NCBI GenBank assembly: GCA_016191845.1
Contig: JACPVF010000016.1
Coordinates: 62,001 to 126,000 of the forward strand
Length of the DNA stretch: 64,000 nt
Reading direction: 5' to 3'
From: Chloroflexota bacterium
GTDB taxonomy: Bacteria; Chloroflexota; Anaerolineae; Anaerolineales; Villigracilaceae
A model generated the notes under the pieces. The model worked only from the letters and a program-made list of their open reading frames with translations. It had not been told where the DNA came from and did not search any database. The translations under genes were made by a program, and so were the position numbers. Below are positions 27,903-33,540 of this stretch, one piece after another; within the stretch, counting starts at the first letter, position 1; each line of letters begins with the position of its first letter.

Positions 27903-28511
27903 ATGTCGGATGAAACCCTGAGCAAAGGCGAATTGACGCGGCAGACCATTGAGGATGCCGCCATTGAACTGTTCATGGAGCAGGGCTATCACGCCACCTC
28001 CATGCGGCAGATCGCAGAGCACGCGAACCTGGCCCTGGGGGGCATCTACAACCATTTCAAGAGCAAGGAAGACCTTTTTGAAGCCATCATCGTGGATAAG
28101 CATCCGTACAAACGCGTGCTTCCGCTGGTCCTCGAAGTGCAGGGCGCGACCACCGAGGAGTTCCTGAAGAATGCCATTCAGGTCGTTCTCACTGAGATGT
28201 CCAGGGAGCCCTATTATCTCAAGCTGATGATGATCGAGTTCGTTGAATTCGATGGCGGTCACGGAGCGATCATGTTGAAGGAAGTGGCGCCAAAGATCCT
28301 GCCCGTCTTCGAGCAGATCGTCGAGCGGCGCAAGGATTTACGTGTGACCAATCCCGTTGTGTTGATGCGTTCGTTTTTGGGGATGGTCATCTCTTACATC
28401 ATCACCGACATGATCATGTCCAATTCGGTGCTCAGCCCGCTGATCCCCAAGAACATGACAGACGCCTACGTGGATCTGTTCCTCCACGGCGTTCTGAAGG
28501 AGACCGCATGA
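27903..28511 (+). CDS. TetR family transcriptional regulator
   Basis: TRQTIEDAAIELFMEQGYHATSMRQIAEHANLALGGIYNHFKSKEDLF. Confidence 0.93.
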   Translation: MSDETLSKGELTRQTIEDAAIELFMEQGYHATSMRQIAEHANLALGGIYNHFKSKEDLFEAIIVDKHPYKRVLPLVLEVQGATTEEFLKNAIQVVLTEMSREPYYLKLMMIEFVEFDGGHGAIMLKEVAPKILPVFEQIVERRKDLRVTNPVVLMRSFLGMVISYIITDMIMSNSVLSPLIPKNMTDAYVDLFLHGVLKETA

Positions 28512-29635
28512 ATTCACGTTTAATGTCCATCATCCGCAAGGAATTCATCCAAATCTTCCGCGACACGCGCACGTTGATCATGGTGCTGATCATCCCGATC
28601 ATGCAGTTGTTCCTGCTGGGATATTCGGCCACCAACGACGTGCGCAACGTGCCGTTGGCCGTGCTCGACCAGAGCCGCAGTACGGAGTCGCGCGCCCTGC
28701 TGGATGCCTACCGCGCTGCGGATTACTTCCGCATCGCCTACTCGGTCGACTCACAAGCCGAGATCCAGGACCTGATCGAAGCAGGCAAGGCGCGGGCGGC
28801 GGTCATCATTCCGCCCGATTACGCCCAGCGCCTTAACGACGGCAACGCCACCGTGGCCTTCATCCTCGATGGCTCGGACCCCACCAGCGCGTCCACGGCG
28901 CTTTCGGCAGCCAAGCTCATCAGCCAGGCGCATGCCACCGGGATCCTGTCCGAGCGTTTCGCACGCACGGGTATGAACCTGCGGGTCCAGCCGCCTGTTG
29001 AGGTGCGGACTACCGTCTGGTACAACCCGGATCTCATTAGCGCCTACTTCATGATCCCAGGTGTGATCGGCATGATCTTGTACGCCATCGCCGCCATCCT
29101 CACCGCCACGTCAGTGGTGCGCGAGCGTGAGCGTGGCACCATCGAGCAGCTCATCGTTACGCCCATTCGCCCGTGGGAGTTGATCGTCGGCAAGTTGATG
29201 CCTTATGTCATCCTTGGCTTCTTCAACACGCTGGAGGTGCTGGCCGTTGGTCACTGGTGGTTTGGCATGCCCATCCGCGGTGACCTGGGACTGATCATCC
29301 TGCTCTCGATCGTTTTTCTGATCACGGGCTTGGGCATCGGTCTATTCGCCTCGACCATCGCCAACACCCAGCAGGAGGCCATGCTGACCGTGTGGATGAC
29401 CCTGCTGCCGAGCATCTTCCTTTCGGGTTTCTTCTTCCCCCTGGAAGCCATGCCCGCCGTCCTGCGCTGGATCTCGTACCTGATGCCGTTGCGCTATTAC
29501 CTGGTCATCATCCGTTCGTTGCTGCTCAAAGATGTCAGCCTGGCCATGATCCAGACGGATGTCATCGCCATGACCCTATTTGCGGTCGGCATCATGACTG
29601 CCGCCGCTCTCCGTTTCCACAAGAGACTCGATTAG
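28508..29635 (+). CDS. ABC-2 type transporter permease (YbhS/YbhR-like)
   Basis: RKEFIQIFRDTRTLIMVLIIPIMQLFLLGY; RERERGTIEQLIVTPIRPWELIVGKL. Confidence 0.93.
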   Translation: MNSRLMSIIRKEFIQIFRDTRTLIMVLIIPIMQLFLLGYSATNDVRNVPLAVLDQSRSTESRALLDAYRAADYFRIAYSVDSQAEIQDLIEAGKARAAVIIPPDYAQRLNDGNATVAFILDGSDPTSASTALSAAKLISQAHATGILSERFARTGMNLRVQPPVEVRTTVWYNPDLISAYFMIPGVIGMILYAIAAILTATSVVRERERGTIEQLIVTPIRPWELIVGKLMPYVILGFFNTLEVLAVGHWWFGMPIRGDLGLIILLSIVFLITGLGIGLFASTIANTQQEAMLTVWMTLLPSIFLSGFFFPLEAMPAVLRWISYLMPLRYYLVIIRSLLLKDVSLAMIQTDVIAMTLFAVGIMTAAALRFHKRLD

Positions 29636-29690
29636 CTTACCTCACCCCAGCCTCTCTTCTTACAGGAGAGGGGAGCCCAAGGAGTATTCC

Positions 29691-31124
29691 ATGAACCACA
29701 AACGTCCCCCGCTTCCCGCCATCATTGTCCTCGGCCTGCTGATCGTCATCGGCGGTTATTTCATCATCAGTCAGGTGCTTGGAAATAATAATGGATCCCT
29801 GACTGCCTCGGGCACCATCGAAGCCGTGCAGATCAACCTTGCCCCTGAGATGGCCGGCAAGGTGACCGAGGTACTGGTCGACGAAGGTCAATCTGTCAAG
29901 ACAGGCGATCCACTCCTCCACCTGGACCCGAGCCTGTTGACCGCGCAACGAGATGCCGCCGCCGCCGCGCTGACCACCGCCAACTCCGCCGCCCAGACTG
30001 CCCAGGCAGGTTATGAGGTGGCTCAGGCTCAATACGACGTGACCCTGACCAATGCACGTGCCGCAGGATCGAAATCGCGTCTTGCTGACTGGAGCGCCCG
30101 TACGCCGAACTATTTCGACCAGCCGCAGTGGTACTTCACCCGCGACGAGCAGATCGCCGCCGCCCAGGCGGGCATCCTCTCGGCCGCGCAGGAAGTGGAC
30201 GCCGCCCAGACCAATCTCGACACGGTGGTCAAGGACTTGAAGAATGCGGACTTCGTCCAGGCCGAGACGCGCCTCGCCAATGCCCGCATCGCCTTCCTCT
30301 CTGCGCTGGACGTGTACAGTCGTTCGCAGGCCAGCGGCGGCACCGTCGACCCGACCACCTTGCCGCTCTCATTGCCCGCTGCAGCCCCTGGCTATCGCAC
30401 TCGCGTTGGGATTGCCAAGCAACTCTCGGGTACCGATGACTTGATCAACGCGGCCGAGGATGTCTATGATGCTGCCAAAGCCGAACTCGACGATGCCCAG
30501 GCCGCCTATGACGACCTGCTCGACACCGACCAGGCGGATGCCGTTCTGCAGGCTCGCGCCGAACTTTCGGTGGCGCTGGAGCGGTATCAGGCTGCCCAGA
30601 ATCGCCTGTCCATGCTGGAGACGGGTGAGAACTCATTGGGCGTCAAGGTGGCACAAGCCGCTTTGGACCAGGCCAAGGCCGCCGTGGAACAGGCGTTGAA
30701 CGCTGCCAAACAGGCCGAGGCCAACCTGGCCCTGATCGACACCCAGATCTCCAAGCTGACCATCTCCGCCCCCACGGACGCCGTGGTGCTGACCCGCAAC
30801 ATCGAACCAGGGGAATTTGTCCAGCCGGGCGCGACGGCTTTCGTCCTCGGCAAACTGAGTGACCTGACCATTACGGTCTACATCCCCGAGGATCGCTACG
30901 GAGAGATCCGCCTTGGCCAGGAAGCCACCGTCACTGTAGACTCCTTCCCTGGCGTGACCTTCAAGGCCACCGTCATCCAGATCGCGGATCAGGCCGAGTT
31001 TACCCCGCGCAATGTCCAGACCATGGAAGGTCGTTCCAGCACTGTCTTTGCCATCAAACTTAGTGTGCAGGATCCCGATGGCAAATTGAAGATTGGCATG
31101 CCCGCGGATGTAGTCTTCAAGTAG
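29691..31124 (+). CDS. HlyD family efflux periplasmic adaptor
   Basis: N-terminal TM, biotinyl-lipoyl halves, long Ala-rich coiled coil, VLTRNIEPGEFVQPGATAFVLG. Confidence 0.9.
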   Translation: MNHKRPPLPAIIVLGLLIVIGGYFIISQVLGNNNGSLTASGTIEAVQINLAPEMAGKVTEVLVDEGQSVKTGDPLLHLDPSLLTAQRDAAAAALTTANSAAQTAQAGYEVAQAQYDVTLTNARAAGSKSRLADWSARTPNYFDQPQWYFTRDEQIAAAQAGILSAAQEVDAAQTNLDTVVKDLKNADFVQAETRLANARIAFLSALDVYSRSQASGGTVDPTTLPLSLPAAAPGYRTRVGIAKQLSGTDDLINAAEDVYDAAKAELDDAQAAYDDLLDTDQADAVLQARAELSVALERYQAAQNRLSMLETGENSLGVKVAQAALDQAKAAVEQALNAAKQAEANLALIDTQISKLTISAPTDAVVLTRNIEPGEFVQPGATAFVLGKLSDLTITVYIPEDRYGEIRLGQEATVTVDSFPGVTFKATVIQIADQAEFTPRNVQTMEGRSSTVFAIKLSVQDPDGKLKIGMPADVVFK

Positions 31125-31138
31125 AAACAAGGATTCTC

Positions 31139-31597
31139 ATGCCGCCGATTGACTGGACCCGAATCAAGACCATTCAAAAGATCCATCGTGTGCTGTATGC
31201 GATCGGGCTGGGACCCGTCATCGGCAGGTTCATCCTCCTGTTGACCACCATGGGACGCAAGTCTGGGTTGCCGCGGGTGACGCCGCTCCAATACGAAAAG
31301 ATCGGCGTGGACTACTACGTCGGTGCGGCACGCGGCCTCAAGGCAGATTGGGTGCGCAACCTCCAGTCGAATCCACATGTGGAAGTGCATGTGGGAGCCA
31401 GTCGTCTGCAAGCCACAGCAGAAGTCGTGACCGATCCAGCCCGCTTCGCCGATTTTCTGGAAGTCCGCCTCCAGCGACATCCGTTGATGATCGGGCTCAT
31501 CATGCAAAAAGCGCATGGACTTCCCCGCCGTCCCAGCCGTGCGCAGTTGGAAGAATTGGCGAAGTCTGAAGTCTTTGTGATCCTCCACCCCAATTAG
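31139..31597 (+). CDS. Nitroreductase / deazaflavin-dependent oxidoreductase (DDN-like) family
   Basis: LLTTMGRKSGLPRVTPLQYEKIGVDYYVGAARGLKADWVRNLQSNPHVEV. Confidence 0.85.
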   Translation: MPPIDWTRIKTIQKIHRVLYAIGLGPVIGRFILLLTTMGRKSGLPRVTPLQYEKIGVDYYVGAARGLKADWVRNLQSNPHVEVHVGASRLQATAEVVTDPARFADFLEVRLQRHPLMIGLIMQKAHGLPRRPSRAQLEELAKSEVFVILHPN

Positions 31598-31607
31598 GAT
31601 TTATCCT

Positions 31608-32642
31608 TTGCGAGAAACCATGACCGACCTTTTAGTGAATGCGACCAACCTGCACAAATCCTTCGGCGACAATCACGCCGTGGATGGAGTATCCCTGCAT
31701 GTCAAGCCGGGCGAGATCTACGGCCTGGTCGGCTCGGACGGCGCAGGCAAGACCACCACCATGCGCCTGCTGGTTGGTGCGCTGCGGCCAGATGAAGGCG
31801 AGATCAACGTGTGCGGCTTTGACGTTTCGAAACAGGTCGAGCAGGCGCGCTCGCAGGTCGGCTATCTCTCCCAGCGTTTTTCCCTTTATGAAGACCTGAC
31901 CGTGCTGGAGAACATCCGCTTCTTTGCCGAGGTGCGCGGACTGTCCCAAACCGAATGGCTGCCTCGCTCGCTGGAGATCCTCGAATTTGTAGGCCTGGGG
32001 AATTTCAAGGATCGTCGTGCGGGTCAACTGTCAGGTGGCATGAAGCAGAAGCTTGGCCTGGCCTCGGCGCTGGTCACCCGTCCGCGCCTGTTGCTGCTCG
32101 ATGAACCCACCACGGGCGTGGACCCCGTCACCCGTCAGGATTTCTGGCAGTTGGTGATCAAGCTGGTGTCGGCCCCCGCGCTGAGCGTAGTCGAAGCGCA
32201 GCGGGCAGACCATCCTTCGACTTCGGACTTCGCAAAGAGCGCTTCGTCCTCCGCTCAGGACGGAGTAAGCGTCATTATCTCCACCCCTTACATGGACGAG
32301 GCCTCGCGCTGCCATCGTGTAGGCTTCATGAAGCTTGGCCGCATCATTGCCGAGGACACGCCCTACAACCTGCGTTCCCGCCTGGCAGAGCGCGTGCTTG
32401 AATTGCGTGGCTCGCCCATCAACACCTTGCGTCATGTGGCGCATCATGATGAAGATGTGGAGGATGTGGCGGCCTTCGGCGACAAATTGCATCTGCGTGT
32501 CAAGGAGGGCCGCGCCCAGGCCGTCATCGAGCGCCTGCCTGCCGGGATCACTGCCCAGGGTGCGGAGTTGATCGAACTGCGATCCATCCCGCCCGCGCTT
32601 GAGGATGTCTTCATCGCCTTATCGGAGACCAACCATGACTGA
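31608..32642 (+). CDS. ABC transporter ATP-binding protein (carries an in-frame repeat insertion)
   Basis: GSDGAGKTTTMRLL Walker A, LSGGMKQKLGLASAL signature, LLLLDEPTTGVDPV Walker B. Confidence 0.93.
   Translation: MRETMTDLLVNATNLHKSFGDNHAVDGVSLHVKPGEIYGLVGSDGAGKTTTMRLLVGALRPDEGEINVCGFDVSKQVEQARSQVGYLSQRFSLYEDLTVLENIRFFAEVRGLSQTEWLPRSLEILEFVGLGNFKDRRAGQLSGGMKQKLGLASALVTRPRLLLLDEPTTGVDPVTRQDFWQLVIKLVSAPALSVVEAQRADHPSTSDFAKSASSSAQDGVSVIISTPYMDEASRCHRVGFMKLGRIIAEDTPYNLRSRLAERVLELRGSPINTLRHVAHHDEDVEDVAAFGDKLHLRVKEGRAQAVIERLPAGITAQGAELIELRSIPPALEDVFIALSETNHD
32178..32263. repeat. Palindromic repeat element inserted inside ABC ATPase gene
   Basis: CGCTGAGCGTAGTCGAAGCGC ... GCGCTTCGTCCTCCGCTCAG imperfect inverted arms; encodes APALSVVEAQRADHPSTSDFAKSASSSAQ with no counterpart in the sister ATPase. 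Confidence 0.7.
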
Positions 32643-33540
32643 GACCGTCATCTCTGTTCAAAACCTGACGCGCCGCTTCGGCGATTTCGTCGCCGTGGAT
32701 CACATTAACTTCGAGGTGCACACGGGCGAGATCGTCGGCTATCTTGGCCCAAACGGTTCAGGCAAAACCACCACCATCCGCATGCTGCTCGGGCTGCTGG
32801 CCCCCAGCGAAGGGCAGGCCACCGTTCTCGGTTACGACGTCTTCGCGCAGAGCGAGGAAGTCCGCTCGCGTGTCGGGTACATGTCGCAGAAGTTTGCCAT
32901 CTACGACGACCTGACCTCTCTGGAGAATTTGACCTTTTACGGGGGAGTGTACGGCATCACTGACAAAGCCCGCATCCAGCGGACCCTGGAGCTGGTCGGC
33001 CTCAAGGGGCATGAGTCCACGCTGACGAGGGACATGTCCACAGGCTGGCGGCAGCGTCTTTCGCTGGGGATTGCCCTGGTCCACGAACCGAAACTGCTCT
33101 TCCTCGACGAGCCTACCTCGGGCGTGGATCCCACTGCCCGCCGCGAGTTCTGGGACTTGATCTATGAGTTGGCAGAGGACGGCGTGACCATCCTGGTGAC
33201 CACCCACTATATGGATGAAGCCGAGTATTGCGAGCGCGTCGGCGTGATGCGGGCCGGCAAGCTCCTGGCGATGGATACCCCCACGGCGCTCAAGCGCAGT
33301 ATCATTCAGGGTGACGTGTGGGAGGTGTACGCCCAGCCGCTCGAGCGCGGGTTGGATCTGTTGTCCGCTGTGGAGGGTGTGGACCGCGTTGGGCTGGCGG
33401 GCGACCACTTGCGCGTGATCAGCTCCCAGGTCCAGAAGGAGACCATGCAGCGTCTGTTGACGGAAGCAGGTATAAGCGTGGAGAAGATCGAGCGCGGCGA
33501 AGCATCGCTCGAGGATGTATTCCTGTCCCTGGCACGCTAA
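32635..33540 (+). CDS. ABC transporter ATP-binding protein
   Basis: LGPNGSGKTTTIRMLLGLL, DEPTSGVDPTARREFWDLIYELAEDGVTILVTTHYMDEAEYC; start at ATG 32635. Confidence 0.93.
   Translation: MTETVISVQNLTRRFGDFVAVDHINFEVHTGEIVGYLGPNGSGKTTTIRMLLGLLAPSEGQATVLGYDVFAQSEEVRSRVGYMSQKFAIYDDLTSLENLTFYGGVYGITDKARIQRTLELVGLKGHESTLTRDMSTGWRQRLSLGIALVHEPKLLFLDEPTSGVDPTARREFWDLIYELAEDGVTILVTTHYMDEAEYCERVGVMRAGKLLAMDTPTALKRSIIQGDVWEVYAQPLERGLDLLSAVEGVDRVGLAGDHLRVISSQVQKETMQRLLTEAGISVEKIERGEASLEDVFLSLAR

Follow-up and report, generated by a model that had tools for sequence, protein, structure and literature searches.

Unrelated repeat families recur in frame in one loop of an ABC exporter ATPase of Anaerolineales

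An exporter operon and the insert in its first ATPase

The DNA analysed here (the window) is a stretch of 64,000 nucleotides from a 4.63-Mb genome in 18 contigs. It carries, at 28508-33540, an exporter operon made up of an ABC-2 permease (28508-29635, plus strand; Pfam), a HlyD-family membrane fusion protein (29691-31124, plus strand; Pfam), a small ORF that we take to be DUF385-like, a label given by our own reading with no database match behind it, and two tandem ABC ATPases, referred to as NBD1 and NBD2. An ORF at 27903-28511 with the appearance of a TetR-type regulator lies directly upstream of the permease and overlaps its start codon. The NBD1 gene (31620-32642, plus strand) begins with an ATG at 31620, a TTG at 31608 being possible further upstream, and its end is overlapped by the start of the NBD2 gene (32635-33540, plus strand), both genes being taken from the ORF list and recognized by Pfam. 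NBD1 matched the Pfam family ABC_tran (2.4e-34) with 119 bits against a cut-off of 25, and its Walker A, signature and Walker B motifs are present and invariant. The H-loop histidine is replaced by proline in NBD1 and in all its aligned orthologues, leaving a degenerate switch (STPYMDEA), and NBD2 retains the histidine (TTHYMDEA). The STPYMDEA form of the first ATPase is kept across many phyla (outgroups L098-L172). Judged from the proline found at this position across many phyla, NBD1 would be an old degenerate ATPase. The best NCBIfam match of both ATPases was the RbbA model, but with 246 bits against a cut-off of 1050. The operon is like the YbhF/RbbA-type systems in its combination of HlyD, tandem NBDs and ABC-2 permease and in the degenerate switch of the first NBD; it is unlike them in having its two NBDs as separate ORFs and in the loop inserts, a peculiarity of this clade.

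An earlier note on this DNA had claimed that about 30 extra residues lie in frame between Walker B and the switch of the first ATPase, encoded by an imperfect palindrome and missing from the sister ATPase. We located 29 extra codons (APALSVVEAQRADHPSTSDFAKSASSSAQ) at 32172-32258 on the plus strand, through which the ORF (31608 or 31620 to 32642) stays open without a stop. Solved ABC ATPases are homologous to NBD1 up to residue 184 and again from residue 214, so that the extra piece corresponds to residues 185-213, and the loop of NBD2 is shorter by the same 29 codons (87 nt). The palindrome was also recovered, with outer arms (32176-32190 and 32249-32263) that are 80% complementary and inner arms (32192-32199 and 32239-32246) that are 100% complementary. 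Folded as a single RNA hairpin, the insert was not exceptional (z = -1.45), and we therefore do not argue for an RNA function. It is better described as two inverted REP units around a spacer: a short-form REP, GCGCTGAGCGTAGTCGAAGCGC, at 32178-32199 (plus strand), a 13-nt spacer at 32200-32212, most of which differs in the sister species G001, where the REP units are nearly identical, and a long-form REP in inverted orientation (TCCTTCGACTTCGG...CCTCCGCTCAGGACGGA) at 32213-32264 (minus strand), both units being defined by genome copies, which for the long form are 75-88% identical. The end of the long-form unit also encodes the loop-closing Asp-Gly of NBD1.

An AlphaFold model of NBD1 built on 47 orthologues had a mean pLDDT of 92, with a core above 90 and values below 50 for residues 198-212. 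This low-confidence segment is the loop between the helix at 169-184 and the strand at 217-222, and in the model the insert is thus a disordered surface loop. The closest fold to the model was that of the Thermotoga ATPase 4yer. 

A dispersed repeat, and a loop occupied by many families

The insert had been likened to an intergenic-type REP, and counting the genomic copies bore this out: we obtained 44 exact matches to the GAGCGNAGTCGAAG core against 1 for the reversed control, and the whole insert segment gave 45 BLAST matches at E<=10, many of which span the long-form REP. The repeat is therefore present well beyond this gene, even though its core occurs only once within the window. The core reads GCGNAGTCG, N being variable, and the element has the makeup of a REP/REPIN, namely a palindromic unit of 20-40 nt in many copies. 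Units arranged head to head around a spacer are seen in the insert itself, in a second pair at L010 and in the spacer change between the window's species (G000) and G001. By eye, the aligned copies have no constant GTAG or CGTC tag at the stem ends, and neither of the two Y1_Tnp loci of the genome has a core copy within about 1.5 kb that would link the REP to a RAYT. Most copies lie outside any convincing ORF. A crude codon-usage score combined with Pfam placed about nine elements in frame within eight genes, among them an APH(6)-like kinase, a 4-hydroxyproline epimerase, glycosyltransferases and a capsule gene. One membrane protein gene (L044:624-2333, minus strand; L045:52-1761, minus strand) holds two separate in-frame REP cores.

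We surveyed the NBD1 loop in 127 orthologues from 119 Anaerolineales genomes, nearly all belonging to one family and two to a second family of the order. The loop ranged from 48 to 225 nt and exceeded 63 nt in 84 orthologues, and all 127 have a loop length divisible by three and no stop codon. None had the canonical 45-nt loop, the "empty" ones measuring 48-63 nt. Alignment of orthologues had been proposed beforehand as the way to tell an insertion from an ancestral loop carried by all; the relatives have other repeats or none at this place, and short loops in many orthologues and in outgroups point to a clean insertion.

The inserts belong to at least eight unrelated repeat families. Beside the REP type of the window there are other hairpins (CCCCCCAAATTCGG..GGGGGG, GGGAGAGGGG and TTCACCGCGAAG), CCGGTTATCC types, AATTCGCAA-like and TACAGGTAGACA tandem types, and CGCTAAGAGCGC types. 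Among the matches listed, most of the inserts searched recurred in their own genomes, with identities of 97% in G034, 95% in G024 and G031, and 92% in G056; for G016 and G003 dozens of copies at least were found, and for G014, G032, G035, G007, G026 and G012 the matches listed included no clear copy of the exact insert. The left boundary is identical in most cases. Inserts are also present in the single-contig genomes G009, G161 and G066, which makes assembly error unlikely, and we rejected an assembly artefact as their source. The NBD1 loop is therefore a recurrent landing site of at least eight unrelated repeat families, which goes beyond what the earlier note had seen. In one orthologue (L080:1489-2484, plus strand) a second insert of nine residues (VVPVPARGE) was observed in the C-terminal domain.

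Turnover between species and reading frame

The history of the inserts was followed on a tree of NBD1 without its loop plus NBD2 (127 rows), on which the insert label took ten states including empty, the repeat-family labels having been corrected by hand before changes were counted. The label required at least 62 changes, against a mean of 72 for shuffled labels. Restricted to the 81 inserted rows, it required 40 changes, shuffled labels giving 43 with a range that reaches down to 37, so repeat family has essentially no phylogenetic signal among inserted orthologues, and insert turnover outpaces speciation. A single ancestral insertion inherited vertically was rejected on this ground as a general explanation, and some sister pairs do share their insert by descent (L263/L264 and L191/L193). 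Unrelated inserts were found in sister species whose ATPase genes are 84-88% identical at the DNA level (L063/L176/L191, L255/L203/L260 and L262/L264). In the congener G001, whose gene is about 82% identical to that of the window's species, the REP arms are the same apart from the variable core position, and the spacer is largely different; from the sequences, another REP copy seems either to have replaced the earlier one or to have inserted independently.

In some cases the insert differs less between species than the host gene does at its silent sites. Recombination or gene conversion was considered as the source of such sharing and set aside, since the flanks of shared inserts showed no wider plateau of identity that would mark a tract; between G000 and G001, complete identity ahead of the insert is limited to the last 30 nt. 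A near-identical insert, far better conserved than silent sites, was also observed in three species (L189, L192 and L197) whose genes are only 82-86% identical, again with no recombination tract.

The frame in which the inserts are read was compared with random frames by permutation on 62 non-redundant inserts. The frame used had less arginine (5.5% versus 11%), fewer Phe, Trp, Tyr and Cys residues taken together (2.4% versus 8%) and a higher disorder propensity (p<1e-4 for each). Stops interrupt the remaining two forward frames in 19 and 39 of the 62 inserts, and the gene is highly conserved on either side of the insert. The frame bias and the stops in the other frames indicate that the inserts have been read as protein over evolutionary time; on this sequence evidence, the insert is probably translated in the cell.

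Tolerance, targeting and relation to known elements

The reading we prefer, to which we give a probability of roughly 0.68, is that a permissive surface loop of NBD1 took up a REP doublet (REPIN-like) in frame, and that repeats are recurrently captured at tolerant loops. Many dispersed palindromic repeat families would keep inserting into the genes of this clade, presumably by way of an insertion machinery, and purifying selection would remove the insertions that break frame or fold, so that the survivors would be in-frame insertions at a few tolerant loops. Such loops would gain a repeat, lose it and take up a different one at a pace exceeding that of species divergence, the inserts being close to neutral. 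The insert of the window would be translated and form a disordered linker in NBD1, the catalytically degenerate member of the ATPase pair in this YbhF/RbbA-like exporter. Tolerance together with a high insertion flux accounts for most of the data.

Other loops of this kind exist, as we found among relatives for two further REP-bearing genes of the window's genome that served as a check of generality. In the APH(6)-like kinase (L006:793-1764, minus strand; relatives L273-L294 and L309-L333), a second landing loop was observed in the N-lobe hairpin (AFA..VVLKIG), where about 16 of 45 relatives carry differing in-frame repeat inserts, including the REP type and the GGGAGAGGGG type. In the 4-hydroxyproline epimerase (L020:842-1804, plus strand; relatives L295-L308), one loop has repeat inserts in 4 of 12 relatives, one of them (L306) with three units in tandem, and the REP (PASTALS) of the window's genome sits in another loop of the protein. 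NBD1 is thus not the only protein with a recurrent landing loop.

The neighbouring sequences behave differently from the NBD1 loop. The paralogous loop of NBD2 from the same loci was 45 nt in 121 of 122 cases and 48 nt in the remaining one, and in NBD1 proteins of other phyla the loop is constant. Alignments of the permease (83), the DUF385-like protein (47) and HlyD (116) contained no repeat-derived insert site, that of HlyD having one ordinary variable segment. A minor REP-derived site was observed near the C terminus of NBD2 in four genomes (L190, L175, L258 and L270), with the octapeptides ARTEQSRS, ARTERSRS, LALSTVEG and PVLSRVEG. In a BLAST census, chosen because a core-pattern search recovered only 45 of 83 inserts, the inserts matched only 47 places in 1.6 Mb around the gene, against about 66% of loops occupied, which by our own arithmetic is a per-kb excess of about 200-fold in the loop. 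Given this excess, an equivalent NBD2 loop that was never hit, the lack of any 45-nt NBD1 loop in the survey and inserts more alike than silent sites of the host gene, tolerance alone may not suffice; part of the occupancy could come from targeting or from selection that favours an extended loop.

Targeting alone would mean a hot spot at the DNA level, where local sequence or structure, or a resident palindrome, is the preferred target and protein tolerance is irrelevant. The enrichment and the common left boundary would fit such a hot spot, as would inserts that across genera are more alike than the host gene and in the same register, and there is a precedent in REPs at about the same recB site of two Xanthomonas species (PMC3733652). 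We nevertheless consider it unlikely, because a single targeting rule fits poorly with many unrelated families sharing the site, tandem-type and non-REP-like ones included, because all inserts are in frame, and because recurrent loops are also found in two other proteins, where the DNA sequence is unrelated. Selection for an extended loop, useful for instance in NBD asymmetry or assembly, with repeats as the handiest in-frame filler, would explain why even "empty" loops exceed the canonical length, why occupancy is high and why disordered, low-Arg and low-aromatic frames are so strongly favoured. This too we regard as improbable: no more than 1-6 residues are added in about one third of the orthologues, no pattern is seen in length or composition, and the similar inserts in the unrelated kinase and epimerase argue for general tolerance. 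That the insert is not translated as such (a pseudogene, RNA-level removal or ribosomal bypassing) is very improbable, for although palindromic inserts could form mRNA hairpins and bypassing of the T4 gene 60 type exists, every loop is in frame and stop-free where the alternative frames often hold stops, NBD1 is highly conserved on both sides, and the folding of the insert is not exceptional. A more ambitious reading, which we find rather doubtful, is that these are dedicated landing loops where repeats are captured, translated and swapped continually above the neutral rate, through DNA targeting or a favoured disordered extension; if true, the clade would have a permanent means of turning repeat DNA into new protein sequence.

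The resemblance to protein-coding palindromic elements (RPEs) that the earlier note had drawn is supported as an analogy. RPEs are known in Rickettsia and Wolbachia (Ogata 2000, 2002, 2005; reviewed in PMC10969869 and PMC2229807), and the Rickettsia guanylate kinase is reported to be translated and active with its RPE insert (PMC2229807). As with RPEs, the repeats here are palindromic and dispersed, mostly intergenic, found in frame within several unrelated conserved protein genes and missing from the segment's place in relatives, with several families per genome; RPEs are translated as surface segments, to which the surface-loop insert may be likened. By analogy, the NBD1 insert would work like an RPE. 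Unlike RPEs, it belongs to a presumably free-living Chloroflexota clade, its units are shorter REP-type doublets and other repeats, and, most strikingly, one and the same loop in orthologous proteins is shared by many unrelated families, whose turnover is visible even between closely related species. Intragenic GTAG/CGTC REPs are small, often dimeric elements encoding 20-30 residues inside ORFs, and GTAG REPs have been reported in Chloroflexi, the Xanthomonas recB case being the one same-site example (PMC3733652); the present elements differ in having neither tag nor an adjoining RAYT, and in a same-site recurrence that covers about 119 genomes and at least eight families instead of two species. 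REPINs and BIMEs (PMC3116915, PMC2817692) share the two inverted REPs around a variable spacer, with arms conserved and spacer changed between sister species, whereas here the doublet is inside a gene and predicted to be translated, and no cognate RAYT was identified.

Set against the open-access literature, the scale appears to be new, with dozens of events from at least eight families at a single loop, a paralogue that serves as a clean control, and landing loops in other genes besides. The case for mobile repeats as a source of new bacterial protein sequence has so far been made mainly in Rickettsia, plus scattered examples. The NBD1 loop offers a natural experiment in more than 100 orthologues, with many independent events at one site, a paralogue never hit, sister species that differ and two further genes, from which it becomes possible to measure rates, the choice of frame, targeting and the effect on fitness. 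It is also a warning that, in genomes of this kind, a loop of variable length may consist of repeat DNA captured not long ago. In these Anaerolineales, genomic junk would repeatedly be turned into protein at fixed landing spots.
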